A DNA stretch of 44,904 bases. It comes from Chloroflexota bacterium (GTDB lineage: Bacteria > Chloroflexota > UBA6077 > SHYK01). Numbering within the stretch: the first letter of the stretch is position 1; each line of letters starts with the position of its first letter. The notes beneath the pieces are model-generated. The model saw only the letters and a list, made by a program, of their open reading frames with translations, had not been told where the DNA came from and did not search any database. A program made the position numbers and the translations under genes. The stretch spans positions 1 through 44,904 of the forward strand of contig DASRDP010000065.1 in the NCBI GenBank assembly GCA_035652535.1, given 5' to 3'. Below, piece by piece: positions 1-6,936 of this stretch.

Positions 1-231
1 CCCGCCCCTGCCGTAGCGGGGGAGGGTGGGGGTGGGGGCTGCCCTTCGACGGGCTCAGGGCGAACGGTGGAGATCCGCGATACCCCCGCCCCTGCCGTAG
101 CGGGGGAGGGTGGGGGTGGGGGCTGCCCTTCGACGGGCTCAGGGCGAACGGTGGAGATCCGCGATACCCCCTCCCCTGCCGTAGCGGGGGAGGGTGGGGG
201 TGGGGGCTGCCCTTCGACGGGCTCAGGGGGG
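1..231. repeat. 84-bp tandem repeat (minisatellite), about 2.75 copies in window
   Basis: The period is exactly 84 bp: matching positions are 13, 97 and 181. The first two copies are nearly identical. The third has one base change (CCCCTCCC for CCCCGCCC) and ends in a longer G run at the unique sequence. Each unit holds the core TTCGACGGGCTCAGG and a G-rich block of four runs (GGGGG, GGG, GGGGG, GGGGG, single-base loops), a classic G-quadruplex pattern on the plus strand. Since 84 is divisible by 3, the array stays open in the frame of the minus-strand large-subunit gene that crosses it. The array continues past the left edge, so total copy number is unknown. Confidence 0.95.
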
Positions 232-1559
232 GCAGCCCAGTGGATGGCGTCGGCTACCGCTCGCACCGACTTGTCCAGCCCCAGGCTATAGATCACCGTA
301 CCGGTCGCGTGCGTGTCCCCGTCGTGGAAGAGGTTCCTGAGGCGAAAGTCCACCGGGTCCCAGCCCATCTCCTTCGCGATGATGTCCATCTGCGACTCGT
401 AGGCCCAGCACACCTGCATGATGCCGAAGCCGCGAAAGGCCCCGGCGGGCGGCTTATTGGTGTAGACGCTGAAGGAGTCGATGCGGACGTTGGGGATGAC
501 GTAAGGGCCCGCGCTGGTGTACCCCGACTTGTGCGTGACCCGCGGCCCGATGTCGGCGTAGGCGCCCGTATCCCACAGGATCTGGCAGTCGCGGGCGAGG
601 AGCCGGCCGTCGCGGGTCACGCCCGTCGTGAGGGTCGCCGAGACGCCATGCTTGGTGATGGTGTGGAACTCCTCCTTGCGGCTGAGACGCACCTTGACGG
701 GGCGCCCGGACGCGCGGGCGAGGAGCGCTGTGATCGGCTCGAGCTTCATGTAGAGCTTGCTGCCGAACCCGCCGCCCAGATATGGGACCATGACCCGAAC
801 GTGCGACTCCGGCAGGTGGAACATGTTGGCGAGCATGATGCGCACGTAGGAGGGGCTCTGGGTGGCCGACCAGACCTGGAGTCGGTCGGCGCCCTTCCAC
901 TGGGCGATGGTGCAGTGGGTCTCGAGATCGGCGTGCTGGGTGGCGGGATTCGAAAAGGTGTGGGTGAAGACCCGGTCGGAGCGACGGAGGCCCTCGTCGA
1001 CGTCGCCCCTGCGCAGTTTGTACTGGAAGCAGGCATTGCTCGTGGCGGGCACGTCCTCCCCGCCCAGCAGCTCGATGAGGTCGGCGAAGGTGCCCGCCGG
1101 GACGAGCCGCTCGCAGATGAGGGGCGCGCCGGGGGCCATGGCCGCGTGGACGTCGAACACGGCCGGCAGCTCCTCGACTTCGACGTCGATGAGGTCCAGC
1201 GCCTCCTCCGCCGTGTCGCGGTCGACCGCCGCGACCGCGGCGACCGGGTCGCCCACGTACCGAACCTTGCCGATGGCCAGGGCGGCCTGGTCCTTGAAGG
1301 CCGGACCGGTGAACGGGTCGATGTCCATGGCCAGAAGGTCTGCCCCGGTGAGGACGGCGCGCACGCCGGGGAGTCGACGCGCGCGGCTGGTGTCGACGTT
1401 CAGGATGCGCCCGTGCGGCACTCGGCTTCGGAGCAGCGCGCCGTGGAGCATGCCGGGCAGCGTGATGTTGTCGACGAACTCGAGGCGGCCGGTCACTTTC
1501 TCCCGTCCCTCGACCCGCCGAACGTCGCTGCCGACGATCCCGAAATCCAACGACCCCAT
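1..1559 (-). CDS. Xanthine dehydrogenase/CO dehydrogenase-type large (molybdopterin) subunit, partial
   Basis: Molybdenum hydroxylase catalytic subunit (CoxL/XdhA superfamily), which binds the molybdopterin cofactor and hydroxylates its substrate with water. The ATG at 1559 follows directly on the TGA of the FAD-subunit gene, so the two are translationally coupled. Translation gives GREKVTGRLEFVDNI near the N terminus (the hammerhead domain), then GKVRYVGDPVAAVAA, THTFSNPATQHADLETH, YLGGGFGSK around residue 260 (the conserved GGGFG loop), PAGAFRGFG and GWDPVDFRLRNLF. After Trp441, where family members have a variable linker between the two halves of the cofactor domain, the frame enters the 84-bp repeats and reads a 28-residue unit (PEPVEGQPPPPPSP and so on) to the window edge without a stop. 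Family members are about 760-800 residues, so the C-terminal half should lie to the left. No small 2Fe-2S subunit lies beside it. The family is certain, the substrate unknown. Confidence 0.88.
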   Translation of the reverse strand, partial: MGSLDFGIVGSDVRRVEGREKVTGRLEFVDNITLPGMLHGALLRSRVPHGRILNVDTSRARRLPGVRAVLTGADLLAMDIDPFTGPAFKDQAALAIGKVRYVGDPVAAVAAVDRDTAEEALDLIDVEVEELPAVFDVHAAMAPGAPLICERLVPAGTFADLIELLGGEDVPATSNACFQYKLRRGDVDEGLRRSDRVFTHTFSNPATQHADLETHCTIAQWKGADRLQVWSATQSPSYVRIMLANMFHLPESHVRVMVPYLGGGFGSKLYMKLEPITALLARASGRPVKVRLSRKEEFHTITKHGVSATLTTGVTRDGRLLARDCQILWDTGAYADIGPRVTHKSGYTSAGPYVIPNVRIDSFSVYTNKPPAGAFRGFGIMQVCWAYESQMDIIAKEMGWDPVDFRLRNLFHDGDTHATGTVIYSLGLDKSVRAVADAIHWAAPPEPVEGQPPPPPSPATAGEGVSRISTVRPEPVEGQPPPPPSPATAGAGVSRISTVRPEPVEGQPPPPPSPATAGA

Positions 1560-2432
1560 TCAGCGAATCTCCAAGCCGGCGCGGTCGGCGGCCGATTCGA
1601 GGGTGCGGCGCACGAAGACTTCCGTGACCGTGCGCTTGTAGTCCGCCGAGCCTCGAACGTCGTCCAGCGGCTCTGCCGCGGCGGCATAGCGCCGGGCGAC
1701 CTCGCCGACGTTCGCCTGGGAGAGGCGCTCGCCGCGCAGGATCGCCTCGGCCGATGGGACGCGCAGCGGCCGATTGGCCACGCACCCGACGACGACCCGC
1801 GCCTCCCGCACGCGCCCGTCGTCCGGCTCCAGCAGCGCCGCGACGCCAACGGTCGGCCAGTCGTTCGGCGAGAGGGCGCAGTATTTCCGGTAAGCGCCCC
1901 GAAGGGCTGGCGACGGGGATGGCACGTCCACGTCCACGATCAACTCGTCCGGCTCGAGGCAGGTCTCGTAATAGTCGACCAGGAGATCGCCAACCGGGAG
2001 GCGCCGCAGGCCGCTGGGACCGCGGACACCGACAGTCGCGTCTAGCGCCATGAGCACGGGGGGGAGGTCCATGTGAATGTCCGCCTGGGCGAGATGGCCG
2101 CCGATCGTGGCCACGTTCCGCACGCGGACGTTGCCCACGAGACGTAGCGCCTCCGCGAGAACAGGGAGGCGCTGGGCGAGCTCGGCCGAGCGCTCGATGG
2201 CGCGGAGGGTGGTCGCGGCGCCGATGTGGACCCCGGCCGCGCTCGTGGCGACGCCCTGGAGCGTCGGAATGTCGACGACGCTGATGAGAGCCCGGGCCTG
2301 GAGCAGCCGCTCGCGGAGGAGGGCGATCAGCATCGCACCGCCGGCGATCCACCGCGCGTCGTCCCCGTGCTGGGCGGCGAGAGCGATCGCGTCATCGACT
2401 GTCGTTGGCAGTAGAAGGTCGAAGGGTCGCAC
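1560..2432 (-). CDS. Molybdopterin dehydrogenase FAD-binding (medium) subunit
   Basis: FAD subunit of a three-subunit molybdenum hydroxylase (CoxM/XdhB type), passing electrons from the 2Fe-2S clusters to the acceptor. The chosen start is GTG at 2432 (VRPFDLLLP), with a GGGGG ribosome site just upstream. This gives 290 residues, the usual family length (about 285-295). The two FAD-binding motifs are visible as AGGAMLIALLRERL near residue 40 and ATIGGHLAQAD near residue 110, followed by the C-terminal CO_deh_flav_C region ending in DDVRGSADYKRTV. Its stop directly abuts the large-subunit start. A longer open frame extends upstream, but that extra sequence is not homologous to the family. The paralogue at 25965-26846 is the same type of subunit. 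Confidence 0.9.
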   Translation of the reverse strand: MRPFDLLLPTTVDDAIALAAQHGDDARWIAGGAMLIALLRERLLQARALISVVDIPTLQGVATSAAGVHIGAATTLRAIERSAELAQRLPVLAEALRLVGNVRVRNVATIGGHLAQADIHMDLPPVLMALDATVGVRGPSGLRRLPVGDLLVDYYETCLEPDELIVDVDVPSPSPALRGAYRKYCALSPNDWPTVGVAALLEPDDGRVREARVVVGCVANRPLRVPSAEAILRGERLSQANVGEVARRYAAAAEPLDDVRGSADYKRTVTEVFVRRTLESAADRAGLEIR

Positions 2433-2709: not shown

Positions 2710-4401
2710 ATGCGGCAGTGGCGCTTTCTCGCGCTCAGCTGGATGACGATTGCGCTCCTTGCGGCTGGATGCGCGGGAACCCCCGGCGCGCCGCCGCGGA
2801 CCAGTGACGCGGCGTCGTCACGCGCCTCCAGCGGGCCGAAGCACATCGTCGCCGCGATGATGGGGAACCCGCCGACGCCCATCGAAAAAGCGGTCGGTGG
2901 AGGGAGCGGCGGTCGCATACCGGGGATTACGGGGCTGCAGCAGCTCGTGGACGCTGGGCTCACGATCCTCGACGACAAAGGCCACCATTTGCCCCTGGTG
3001 GCCGAGGCTGTGCCGTCGCTGGAGAATGGGCTCTGGATCGTCAGCCCCGATGGCCGCATGCAGACGACCTGGAAGATCCGGCAGGGCGCGACCTGGCACG
3101 ACGGGGCCCCCTTCACGTCGGAGGACCTGGTCTTTACGTCCGTCGTCGAGCAGGACAACGACTTGCCGTTCGAGCGAAATCCGGCCTACCGGATGATCGA
3201 GAGTATCGAGGGACCGGATCCCCAGACCATCGTCGTGAAATGGAAGCAACCCTTCATCGACGCGGACCAGTTCTACATCAGCCCGCAGCTTCCGAAGCAC
3301 ATCCTGGAGAAGCCCTTCATCGAGAACAAGGAGAGCTTCCAGGCCCTTCCGTACTGGAACGTCGAGTTCATCGGTAACGGGCCGTACAAGGTCAGGGAAT
3401 GGGCGCGCGACACGTACACGGTACTGCAGGCGAACGACGCGTGGATCGAAGGTCGGCCGAAGATCGACGAGATCGAGGTGCGCTTCCTCGCCGACGAGAA
3501 CGCCTTCATGGCGAACATTCTGGCGAACCAGATCGACGTCACCATCGGGAAGAGCATCACGCTCGAGCAGACGCTCTCCGTGCGCGACCAATGGGCCAAC
3601 GGCCACATCGAGATGATTCCCGAGACGACCATGAAGATCTGGCCGCAGTTCATCGGCGCCAACCCGCAAATCATCACGAACGTGCAGTTCAGGAAGGCCC
3701 TGATGGCCGCGACGAATCGGCAGGAGATGGTGGACACCATCATGGGGGGCCTCTCGTCTGTGGCGCACTCCAACCTCTTGCCGACGGACGCGGAGATCTC
3801 GGAAGTGGATTCGGCAATCGTGAAGTACCAGTTCGATCCGCGCCAGGCGACGCGGCTGATCGAGGGCCTGGGCTACACGAAGGGCAACGACGGACTCTTC
3901 CACGATCAGGCGGGCCAGCCGCTGAGCGTGCAGATCACCTCGACGGACGAGAACCAGAATACGAAGCCGATGTTCGCGGTGGCCGAATATTGGCAGCAGG
4001 CCGGCGTCGGCACGGAGACGGTCATCATTCCCATTCAGCGCCAGCGCGACCGCGAGTATCGCGCCACGTTCCCCGGCTTCGCGCTCCAGGGCGGAGCGAG
4101 CGGACTGGCCGCACTCCAGAACTCGCACGGATCGCAGGCTCGCCTGCCGGAGAACAACTACACGGGCAGCAACTACTCCCGGTACATCAATCCGGAGTTC
4201 GATGCCCTCCTCGACACGTATGCGAGCACGATTCCGCGCGTCGAGCGGCTTGAGGCCCTCAAAGCGGTCCTGCATATGATGACAGACCAACTGAGCATGA
4301 TGACGCTCTACTACGCGACGTCCAGCACGATGATCAGCAATCGGATGGTGAACGCCGGCCGCGACCCCACGTGGAACGCCCCGCAGTGGGATCTCAAGTA
4401 G
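2710..4401 (+). CDS. ABC transporter solute-binding lipoprotein, family 5 (peptide/nickel/opine type)
   Basis: Extracytoplasmic solute-binding protein (SBP_bac_5), 563 residues. The start at ATG 2710 has a GGAGG site a few bases upstream and gives a lipoprotein signal: MRQWR, a hydrophobic stretch, then the lipobox LAAGC. An in-frame start 33 nt upstream would put extra residues before the signal. Family features include WKIRQGATWHDGAPFTSEDL in the N-terminal lobe, GNGPYKVREW in the middle, and a C-terminal lobe ending in NAPQWDLK. No permease or ATPase gene lies beside it, so it must share a transporter encoded elsewhere or act alone. It is convergent with the response regulator gene; 4402-4468 shows no clear terminator. 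Substrate unknown. Confidence 0.9.
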   Translation: MRQWRFLALSWMTIALLAAGCAGTPGAPPRTSDAASSRASSGPKHIVAAMMGNPPTPIEKAVGGGSGGRIPGITGLQQLVDAGLTILDDKGHHLPLVAEAVPSLENGLWIVSPDGRMQTTWKIRQGATWHDGAPFTSEDLVFTSVVEQDNDLPFERNPAYRMIESIEGPDPQTIVVKWKQPFIDADQFYISPQLPKHILEKPFIENKESFQALPYWNVEFIGNGPYKVREWARDTYTVLQANDAWIEGRPKIDEIEVRFLADENAFMANILANQIDVTIGKSITLEQTLSVRDQWANGHIEMIPETTMKIWPQFIGANPQIITNVQFRKALMAATNRQEMVDTIMGGLSSVAHSNLLPTDAEISEVDSAIVKYQFDPRQATRLIEGLGYTKGNDGLFHDQAGQPLSVQITSTDENQNTKPMFAVAEYWQQAGVGTETVIIPIQRQRDREYRATFPGFALQGGASGLAALQNSHGSQARLPENNYTGSNYSRYINPEFDALLDTYASTIPRVERLEALKAVLHMMTDQLSMMTLYYATSSTMISNRMVNAGRDPTWNAPQWDLK

Positions 4402-4468
4402 GGGCGCGGGCCTGAGTCTCCCCCTCCGCCGCCGCATACATCGGGCTTGGACCACGTGCCAGATCTGG

Positions 4469-5170
4469 TCAGCGTGCCGCCGACTTTGGCGGCTCGGATG
4501 TGAGTCGGATTCCGAGGCCGCGCACGGTGATCAGCATGCCCACCGCGGCGGGGTCTCTCTCGACCTTTCGGCGGAGGCGATGCAGCGCCACGCGCAGTGA
4601 CTCGATCATACTCGGGTCCTGCGTCTCACATGCGTGTTGCAGGAGAACGAAGGTTGGAACAACGGAATCCGCGTTGAGCATCAGGCAGCGAAGGAGTCGG
4701 AACTCCGTCAGGCTGAGATTGAGCGGCGCGCCACTGCTACGGACCTCGTGGCGACGCTCGTCGAGCGTGAGCGGCCCGACCCGGATGACCGATTCGGCCT
4801 GGAGCGGAGCAGCGGCCGCCGTGCGGAGACGAGCGCGAATCCGTGCCAAGAGCTCGCGATAGCCGAACGGCTTGGTGACATAGTCATCAGCGCCGAGGTC
4901 CAGACCGAGGACCCTGTCCTCCTCAGCAGTGCGTCCGGTCAACAACAGAACGGGGACGCTGTGCGTGCGTCGAAGCTCACGGAGCAAGTCGAAGCCAGAT
5001 TCGACGCCGAGGTTCAGATCGAGCACGACGAGGTCTGGCGGGGCAGTCTGGATCTCGAGCATCGCCGAGCGCAGATCGTCGGCGCTGGCCACGGAGTAGC
5101 CCGCACGACGGAGCGCGTCGCCCAGGATGTCCACCAATTCAACGTCGTCGTCGACGAGGAGAATTCTCAC
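4469..5170 (-). CDS. OmpR/PhoB-family response regulator 1
   Basis: Cytoplasmic two-component response regulator, 233 residues. The receiver domain (about 1-120) keeps the acidic pair D7/D8, phosphoacceptor D51 (VVLDLNL), T78 and K100-P101 (YVTKPFGY). The C-terminal winged helix (about 130-225) has TEFRLLRCLMLNADSVVP and a recognition-helix region SLRVALHRLRRKVE. The start is a GTG whose GTGA overlaps the kinase stop, so translation is coupled to the upstream kinase gene. It is the last gene of the unit running from TadE at 10609. Its DNA-binding domain closely resembles that of the second regulator (15243-15950), so both may read the same operator. That shared target is inference. Confidence 0.93.
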   Translation of the reverse strand: MRILLVDDDVELVDILGDALRRAGYSVASADDLRSAMLEIQTAPPDLVVLDLNLGVESGFDLLRELRRTHSVPVLLLTGRTAEEDRVLGLDLGADDYVTKPFGYRELLARIRARLRTAAAAPLQAESVIRVGPLTLDERRHEVRSSGAPLNLSLTEFRLLRCLMLNADSVVPTFVLLQHACETQDPSMIESLRVALHRLRRKVERDPAAVGMLITVRGLGIRLTSEPPKSAAR

Positions 5171-6936
5171 GCGGCGGCGTCCGCCAGCGGGAGAGTGATC
5201 CAGAAGTGAGTTCCGCGGCGGGTCTCGGTGTCGAGTCCGACGTTGCCACCATGCGCCTCGATCGTGCTCTTTACGATGGCGAGGCCGAGGCCAGCGCCGG
5301 GAAGCTGGAGGGAATTGGAGCCGCGGAAGAAACGGGTAAAGACGTTGCCCCGCTCATCAACGGGTATGCCCGGGCCACGATCCTCGACCGTGATTCGGGC
5401 GAACCCATTGGCCGTGTCGACTCGGACGCACACAGGCTCACCGGCGGGTCCGTACGTGGACGCGTTGCTGAGAAGGTTGACGAGGGCCTGGACCACGTAC
5501 CGATTGTGGGCGCGAACGACGAGCCGCTCGTCGGCGACGTCGAAGTCGAGCCTTTGGTCGCGGCCCTCGAGGAGCGGGGCGACGGCATCCGCCGCTTCCG
5601 CGAGGATGGGCATCAGGAGGGTGGGGCGCGGTTTGATGACGAGCCGGCCCGACTGGATGTTCTCGGCGCTCAGCAAGTTGTCCATGAGCGTGTGGAGCCG
5701 GGTAGCCGTGCGTCGGCCAGCGCCTACCAGGTTCGCATATTCGCGAGCGCTCAGTTCGCCGGACTGTGTCGCCAGGATTTCGAGCACGTTCTCGACCACT
5801 GCGAGGGGCGCGCGAATTTCGTGGGCGACGAGCGCCATGTACTGCTCGCGCTGTCGGTTTGCGGTGTCCATCGCGGCAGAGGCGAGGCGCACGTCGATCG
5901 TGCCGCCAGCCAGCCGGACGTGTGCCTGCATGAGGTCAATCTCCCACGGCTCGTATCGATGCGCGTCGTCGTGGACGAGCAGGAGGACGTAAACGCGGTC
6001 GGTGGTGATGCGCCCTGCCACGAGAGTCAGGACCTGCGCACCGCATTCCAGCAACTCGGATGGCACCGTGGATGGTCGGTCGATGCTCGGAGCGATTTGG
6101 ACGCTGGCGCCGCGCCGCAGGTCGGCCAGTGTCTCGCCTGAGAGGATCGCGGCGACGTGCCAATCCTGCAGAGGGCAGCGCCCGCGGTGGATGGCCAGCA
6201 CGTCTACGGCCGCCGCCGCGCCGATGCTGCAAAGGGCGACGGCCTCGGCGCGATAGCGGTGGGCGGCCATTTGCGCGATGATTTCGGCGATTCGGCTTGG
6301 GTCCTGCTCGCCGGCGAGGCGAGCCGCGACGGCGGCCAGCTCCTCGGACCCGGCGATCCGCCCCGCCAGCTCGAGGCCGACGGCGTGGAGGCGCGCCGAG
6401 ATCTCGCGCTGCTCCTCCAGGCTCTTCTGGAGCGCCTCGCCGCGCTGGCGCGCGATCCGCGCATTGAAGGCCATGCTCTGGGTGGCGATGGCGGTGACGT
6501 TGAGGCCGAGATAGTTGAGGAGCAGGTCCGCTAGGGGCACTGCCGTGCGGGCGCCGAGCGCGTGCGCGAACGTGGCATAGGCGAAGGAGACGTAGAGGAG
6601 GTGCGCGACGGCCACCGAGGCGCGCTGGGACCGGCGGACCGAGACGGCCACGGCTCCGGTGTAATAGAGCCCAAGCATGACGCCCTGTTGGCGCGGGGCG
6701 AGCGTGTACGCTGCGCCGAAGCTGATCGCCGCAATGATCGGGAGGAGGAGCGAAGGTTTGCGCCAAATCAGCTCCGAGGTGAGCGCGACCGCACCAATGA
6801 GGCTGAACGCGCCAGCGAGCATGCCCTCCGACAGGAGCCATTCGCCGTAAATCAGAAGCGCGGCGGACACCACGAGCTCCATCACGGTATGGGACTGGGC
6901 GAACCGCTGGAGGGTCTGGTGAATTCGTGCGATCAT
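5167..6936 (-). CDS. Membrane sensor histidine kinase 1
   Basis: Partner kinase of the downstream regulator, 589 residues. Residues about 18-155 form roughly six hydrophobic segments with short loops, so there is no large external domain. A coiled-coil-like linker (about 160-185) and a GAF-like region (about 195-350) follow. Then comes the HisKA domain with phosphorylatable H372 (ALVAHEIRAPLAVVE), and an ATPase domain with N-box NLLSNASTYGP, G1 VEDRGPGIP and G2 GAGLGLAIVK. All catalytic boxes are intact. It lies 29 bp after the TadG/RCC1 gene and overlaps the regulator by 4 nt, and so is probably cotranscribed with the Tad genes from the operator near 10.7 kb. The signal sensed is unknown; a membrane or intracellular cue is likely from the topology. 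Confidence 0.92.
   Translation of the reverse strand: MIARIHQTLQRFAQSHTVMELVVSAALLIYGEWLLSEGMLAGAFSLIGAVALTSELIWRKPSLLLPIIAAISFGAAYTLAPRQQGVMLGLYYTGAVAVSVRRSQRASVAVAHLLYVSFAYATFAHALGARTAVPLADLLLNYLGLNVTAIATQSMAFNARIARQRGEALQKSLEEQREISARLHAVGLELAGRIAGSEELAAVAARLAGEQDPSRIAEIIAQMAAHRYRAEAVALCSIGAAAAVDVLAIHRGRCPLQDWHVAAILSGETLADLRRGASVQIAPSIDRPSTVPSELLECGAQVLTLVAGRITTDRVYVLLLVHDDAHRYEPWEIDLMQAHVRLAGGTIDVRLASAAMDTANRQREQYMALVAHEIRAPLAVVENVLEILATQSGELSAREYANLVGAGRRTATRLHTLMDNLLSAENIQSGRLVIKPRPTLLMPILAEAADAVAPLLEGRDQRLDFDVADERLVVRAHNRYVVQALVNLLSNASTYGPAGEPVCVRVDTANGFARITVEDRGPGIPVDERGNVFTRFFRGSNSLQLPGAGLGLAIVKSTIEAHGGNVGLDTETRRGTHFWITLPLADAAA

Follow-up and report, generated by a model that had tools for sequence, protein, structure and literature searches.

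A molybdenum-hydroxylase large-subunit gene at the end of a contig from an uncultured Chloroflexota bacterium reads without a stop into a tandem array of an 84-bp, hairpin-bearing repeat. The favoured explanation, with a probability of about 0.6, is that a composite hairpin repeat, normally intergenic, was inserted in frame in the linker of the hydroxylase and was then multiplied as the 84-bp array, the second half of the gene lying beyond the contig edge. Insertion of such hairpins into genes is a recurrent process in this lineage, and the recurrence of in-frame hairpins inside genes is the strongest support for the insertion reading. From the hydroxylase locus alone, continuation of the frame, gene loss and assembly error are inseparable. 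The window analysed here is the whole 44,904-nucleotide stretch, which is the entire contig C65, so that base 1 is a contig end. The source assembly consists of 168 contigs totalling 4.45 Mb and is 98.3% complete and 4.56% contaminated. The features at this end of the window are as follows.

3–1559, minus strand: molybdenum-hydroxylase large-subunit ORF, 519 aa, open through the array with no stop before the contig edge.
237–1559, minus strand: N-terminal half of the large subunit, 441 aa to Trp441, with MoCoBD_1 and a/b hammerhead domains and a strong coding signal.
1560–2414, minus strand: FAD-binding subunit of the same enzyme, lying immediately 5' of the large subunit, an order common to the orthologs (L122, L123).
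1–228, minus strand: tandem array of the 84-bp composite unit (TRF: period 84, 2.7 copies, 99% match, one mismatch).
1–26, no strand: hairpin element B, contig-edge copy, from sequence reading and window search.
85–110, no strand: hairpin element B, middle copy, its stem predicted in a single-strand fold.
169–194, no strand: hairpin element B, gene-nearest copy, which exactly fits the genome-wide pattern.
18–38, and again 102–122 and 186–206, plus strand (the template strand of the gene): G-run GGGGGAGGGTGGGGGTGGGGG, of a potentially quadruplex-forming type.
43–67, plus strand: element A (REP-like), copy 1, from window search.
127–151, plus strand: element A, copy 2, from window search.
211–228, plus strand: element A, truncated copy at the gene junction, read from the sequence.
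204–238, no strand: candidate junction feature read from the sequence, a 9-bp inverted repeat, GGGCTGCCC (204–212) and GGGCAGCCC (230–238).

The ORF can be assigned to the xanthine dehydrogenase family of molybdenum hydroxylases, since it contains both the a/b hammerhead domain (PF01315; the Pfam match Ald_Xan_dh_C covers residues 23–132) and MoCoBD_1 (PF02738; residues 174–410). MoCoBD_2 (PF20256), the C-terminal half of the cofactor domain, is absent from the 519-aa ORF, which ends at the contig edge; the matching region is found in both orthologs. Residue 441 is a tryptophan (window 239–237), and directly after it the array begins, encoding 28-residue units of VSRISTVRPEPVEGQPPPPPSPATAG(A/E)G in the frame of the large subunit. 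The initial annotation had described the 84-bp repeat as remaining open in this frame on the minus strand, and its coordinates and frame are correct. Codon-usage scoring, trained on the hydroxylase ORFs of the source genome itself, finds the minus frame strongly coding between approximately 300 and 2400, with no coding signal in the array. An array which lacks a coding signal and is nonetheless in frame fits repeat-derived sequence read in frame. No Rfam family matches anywhere in the window.

The 84-bp unit is composite. In plus-strand order it consists of hairpin B, CCCKCCCCTGCCGTAGCGGGGGAGGG, the overlapping G-run and then element A, CCTTCGACGGGCTCAGGGCGAACGG. Within the window elements A and B occur solely in the array, against a chance expectation of 0 for each. 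The junction inverted repeat flanks the truncated copy of element A and overlaps the Trp441 codon. Four of the six reading frames of the unit contain no stop, and shuffling an 84-mer of this composition leaves any given frame open in 62% of cases; openness is therefore likely to arise by chance, and frame and divisibility by three are by themselves weak evidence for a functional insert. An unusual single-strand stability of the unit was also considered and dismissed: it does not exceed that of shuffled sequences (z 0.61), so that hairpin strength provides no argument here.

Both elements are dispersed well beyond the window. The hairpin B pattern, CCCTCYCCN{3,10}GGRGAGGG, is present at 36 genomic sites and its backwards control at 3, and element A has 15 near-matches genome-wide against 0 for the control; both are thus dispersed multicopy palindromes in the manner of the RPE-like coding repeats. 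Across 16 genomes of the order the hairpin B pattern is found between 1 and 188 times, well above control in about 10 of them and near control in the others (G004 and G006, for example). Most copies of A and B lie between genes, several between convergent ones, as judged from codon-usage scoring of the flanks. The B sites listed have no conserved terminal GTAG/CGTC tag: the B copy of the window has GTAG solely in its loop, where most other B copies have GCAG, and copies of element A vary at the corresponding position. A single Y1_Tnp gene was detected in the genome (C36), with neither A nor B in its flanks of approximately 1.5 kb, although a RAYT scoring below threshold or falling in an assembly gap is possible. 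Given the unconserved tags and the lack of a RAYT link, the element is not classed as a GTAG/CGTC REP, though it behaves like one. A literature search with the element A string or its peptide gave no match. The initial annotation had seen in the array a mobile or expanding intergenic repeat colonising a coding sequence. An intergenic-type repeat in frame, recurring elsewhere, agrees with this; mobility, with no dedicated transposase linked to the repeat, is suggested by the dispersed copies.

The position of the array emerges from comparison with two orthologs from same-family genomes, both recorded as Chloroflexi MAGs and both without the array. The ortholog on JAERMM010000034.1 (G002:C72; 83%) is an intact ORF of 797 aa, and that on WHTR01000115.1 (G004:C17; 82%) is an intact ORF of 791 aa; in each case an ORF for the FAD subunit precedes the large subunit and one for the [2Fe-2S] subunit follows it. 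Similarity stops exactly at W441, the start of a variable linker of 19–21 residues in the orthologs, which lies between the two halves of the cofactor domain. Thus the window gene ends its homology with '...AVADAIHW', whilst the orthologs read '...AVADAIGW', EKTAPIPYQAVQPANGPLRKA, 'RGKG...' and '...AVADAVAW', DYREASAPHPTGDGARHLV, 'RGKG...'. The earlier placing of the 28-residue units after Trp441, at the natural linker between these halves, is borne out.

The same linker is interrupted in nicotinate dehydrogenase (PDB 3hrd), a member of the same enzyme family, in which NdhL ends and NdhM begins ('KKRGKG') within it. A covalent join is not needed in this homologue, and the fold evidently tolerates interruption at this point. 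The interruption there is a subunit boundary, however, whereas in the window gene it is an in-frame repeat insert. A natural subunit split of the same kind, with the second half encoded by a separate gene past the array and the array itself being intergenic or a C-terminal tail, is suggested by the NdhL/NdhM precedent, but it is very improbable given that both closest orthologs are single ORFs of 791–797 aa and that the array has no stop in the gene frame within the contig.

Unlikely, but a more serious competitor, is a true truncation, in which rearrangement or deletion between hairpins removed the C-terminal half together with the small subunit and left an N-terminal fragment running on, by chance, into an intergenic array. 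In its favour, the fragment lacks MoCoBD_2, chance read-through is expected of a unit open in so many frames, and neither the C-terminal half nor the small-subunit ortholog is found in an assembly of such completeness. A search of the assembly with the PF20256 profile and the C-terminal half of the orthologs returned only paralogs (best 39%), as did a search for the small-subunit ortholog as a marker of the mate contig (best 52%). The contig ends within the array, however, so that absence of the downstream sequence is expected from fragmentation. The break coincides exactly with the domain linker, whilst a break placed at random among some 800 residues would hit a 20-residue linker in only about 2.5% of cases. 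Over the 441 residues of the N-terminal half, comparison with the orthologs gives dN of 0.11–0.13 and dS of 0.83–1.10 (dN/dS about 0.10–0.15), the values between the two intact orthologs being 0.12 and 1.35. The low dN and high dS indicate that this half was under purifying selection until recently, and, since its dN is no higher than between the orthologs, any loss must be recent. A complete gene from a sister genus, described below, has hairpins at the same linker with its second half in place.

An assembly artefact would place the anomaly in the contig rather than the gene: a tip that is chimeric or looped into the repeat, the real gene continuing without the array. The array does start at contig base 1, assembly errors gather at contig edges, metagenome assemblies break at short composite repeats, and two other contigs of the assembly (C109 and C101) likewise end in or beside hairpin clusters. 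Against this, the full 84-bp unit occurs at no other locus, so that an obvious source for a chimera is lacking, the junction keeps to both linker and frame, and the same architecture is found well inside other contigs (C126, C22 and G003:C9), which makes an artefact quite improbable. No other contig of the assembly shares a long stretch of the array, and the junction cannot therefore be bridged. Partial pieces at the end of C128 and the start of C19 were considered as the mate of C65 and rejected, as they seem to belong to a single other paralog that is interrupted by the contig ends. These pieces (L064 end and L063 start) appear to be another hydroxylase large subunit split across two contigs.

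The insertion reading draws most on genes elsewhere, in-gene cases having been counted from selected genome stretches. A different hydroxylase gene from another genus (g4; G003:C9, L100) is a complete ORF of 842 aa with all three domains. Two B-type hairpins (L100:2752–3012) lie in frame in it, at the linker where the window gene has its array, and the second half comes after them. An AlphaFold model of this protein (pTM 0.87) has both halves confident, with the insert, residues 440–482, at a pLDDT of about 35–38. Among 45 hydroxylase large-subunit ORFs (106 kb) convincing B elements are confined to this gene and that of the window, at this linker in both; a further B match, in the L016 hydroxylase ORF, is degenerate and was judged spurious.

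In the source genome itself, a prophage-like region on C126 includes a 599-aa terminase ORF (L075:289–2085, equivalent to C126:24788–26584) with two in-frame hairpin-B inserts of roughly 40 and 60 residues, at C126:25681 and 25934. These are without counterpart in six related IMG/VR terminases, with the one exception that a related terminase carries a different repeat at the first site. The AlphaFold model of the terminase, with a mean pLDDT of 44.6, is too poor for use. The portal gene of the same region (L075:2079–3641; phrog_64, E 3e-43) has an in-frame hairpin-B insert, beginning PTPPSPAAAGKG, where relatives have a shorter segment or none. A 727-aa ABC exporter (L168:6888–9068, minus strand) carries an in-frame hairpin at C22:7876, between FSY (of a VSFSY segment) and ALDDVSF in the nucleotide-binding domain, a stretch unmatched in solved homologues. 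An in-frame insert in a complete gene that is missing in homologues is thus found at the two terminase sites, in the G003 hydroxylase and in the ABC exporter; in the C65 gene the left junction of the insert is the only one visible. The likeness in principle to Rickettsia palindromic elements drawn in the initial annotation is upheld by these hydroxylase, terminase, portal and exporter genes.

Palindromic repeats inside genes are already known, from Rickettsia and from the REPs of PMC3733652. PMC2996958 cites the Rickettsia elements (RPE) together with coding palindromes from Wolbachia and Methanocaldococcus; like those described here, these are palindromic repeats, dispersed and lying in the reading frame of ordinary protein genes, typically in parts that are non-structured. 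The present case differs from RPE in its host phylum, in its much more G+C-rich sequence and in having a composite unit in tandem array within one gene, the likeness being one of functional class, by description. Intragenic REPs and 'REP-decorated' proteins were reported by Di Nocera et al. (2013; PMC3733652), whose text describes REP clusters encoding 43–82 residues and lists Chloroflexi among phyla with GTAG repeats. According to the same passages these too are short palindromes, mostly intergenic, often between convergent genes and sometimes wholly within ORFs; they differ from hairpin B and element A, which have neither the conserved terminal GTAG/CGTC tag nor a detected RAYT link. In the accessible portions of PMC3733652 no mention was found of the hydroxylase linker or of phage terminase and portal sites. 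Less expected are the inserts in genes for phage packaging and the fact that a single enzyme linker has been used repeatedly.

Under the insertion reading, a composite REP-like repeat (B, G-run and A) of normally intergenic type would have entered the 19–21-residue linker in frame. Local multiplication, by slippage or unequal recombination, would then have produced the tandem array of 84 bp (3 x 28), a process that the junction inverted repeat (204–212/230–238) and the G-run may have favoured. Any multiple of 84 would preserve the frame, giving a protein with an extruded, unstructured Pro/Gly-rich loop around which both domain halves could fold. In needed genes only inserts that keep the frame would be expected to survive. 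The second half would lie in frame beyond the contig edge, where assembly was presumably halted by the array, and the protein may be made and active. Copy number might also vary between strains and tune or break the enzyme, as the initial annotation suggested.

A wider proposal is tentative and rather doubtful: that intergenic hairpins recurrently and preferentially colonise protein domain linkers across this Chloroflexota lineage, both in chromosomal enzymes and in prophage packaging genes, the window holding a REP-seeded coding minisatellite, an in-frame and length-variable array of 28-residue units in a working enzyme, at the point that forms a subunit boundary in a related enzyme. The terminase and portal genes of a related phage, IMGVR_UViG_3300018063_000626 (L174/L178), contain in frame another repeat family, composed of GAGTCGC/GACTCGG heptads that have inverted arms, at about 3970–4045, 4768–4815, 5337–5397 and 6173–6240, once at the first terminase site of hairpin B. 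The same hydroxylase linker has thus been hit in two genes of two genera, and one terminase linker by different repeat families in two related phages, which makes site preference versus survival at tolerant linkers a testable question. There are few places in which non-coding palindromic repeats are seen to become protein, and the findings add to them an uncultured Chloroflexota lineage together with its prophages. They also carry a warning for annotation, in that translated repeats may account for Pro/Gly-rich stretches such as RPEPVEG or PPSPAxAGEG.

Two ORFs beside the C126 portal gene (L075:4660–5226 and 3964–4656) contain element-A peptides in frame (HGEPVEPRTDALRQAQGER; SPRLALRQTQGE), the peptide in L075:4660–5226 being followed by a tandem VGERED repeat. 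The ABC exporter on C22 ends in a second repeat-derived tail.
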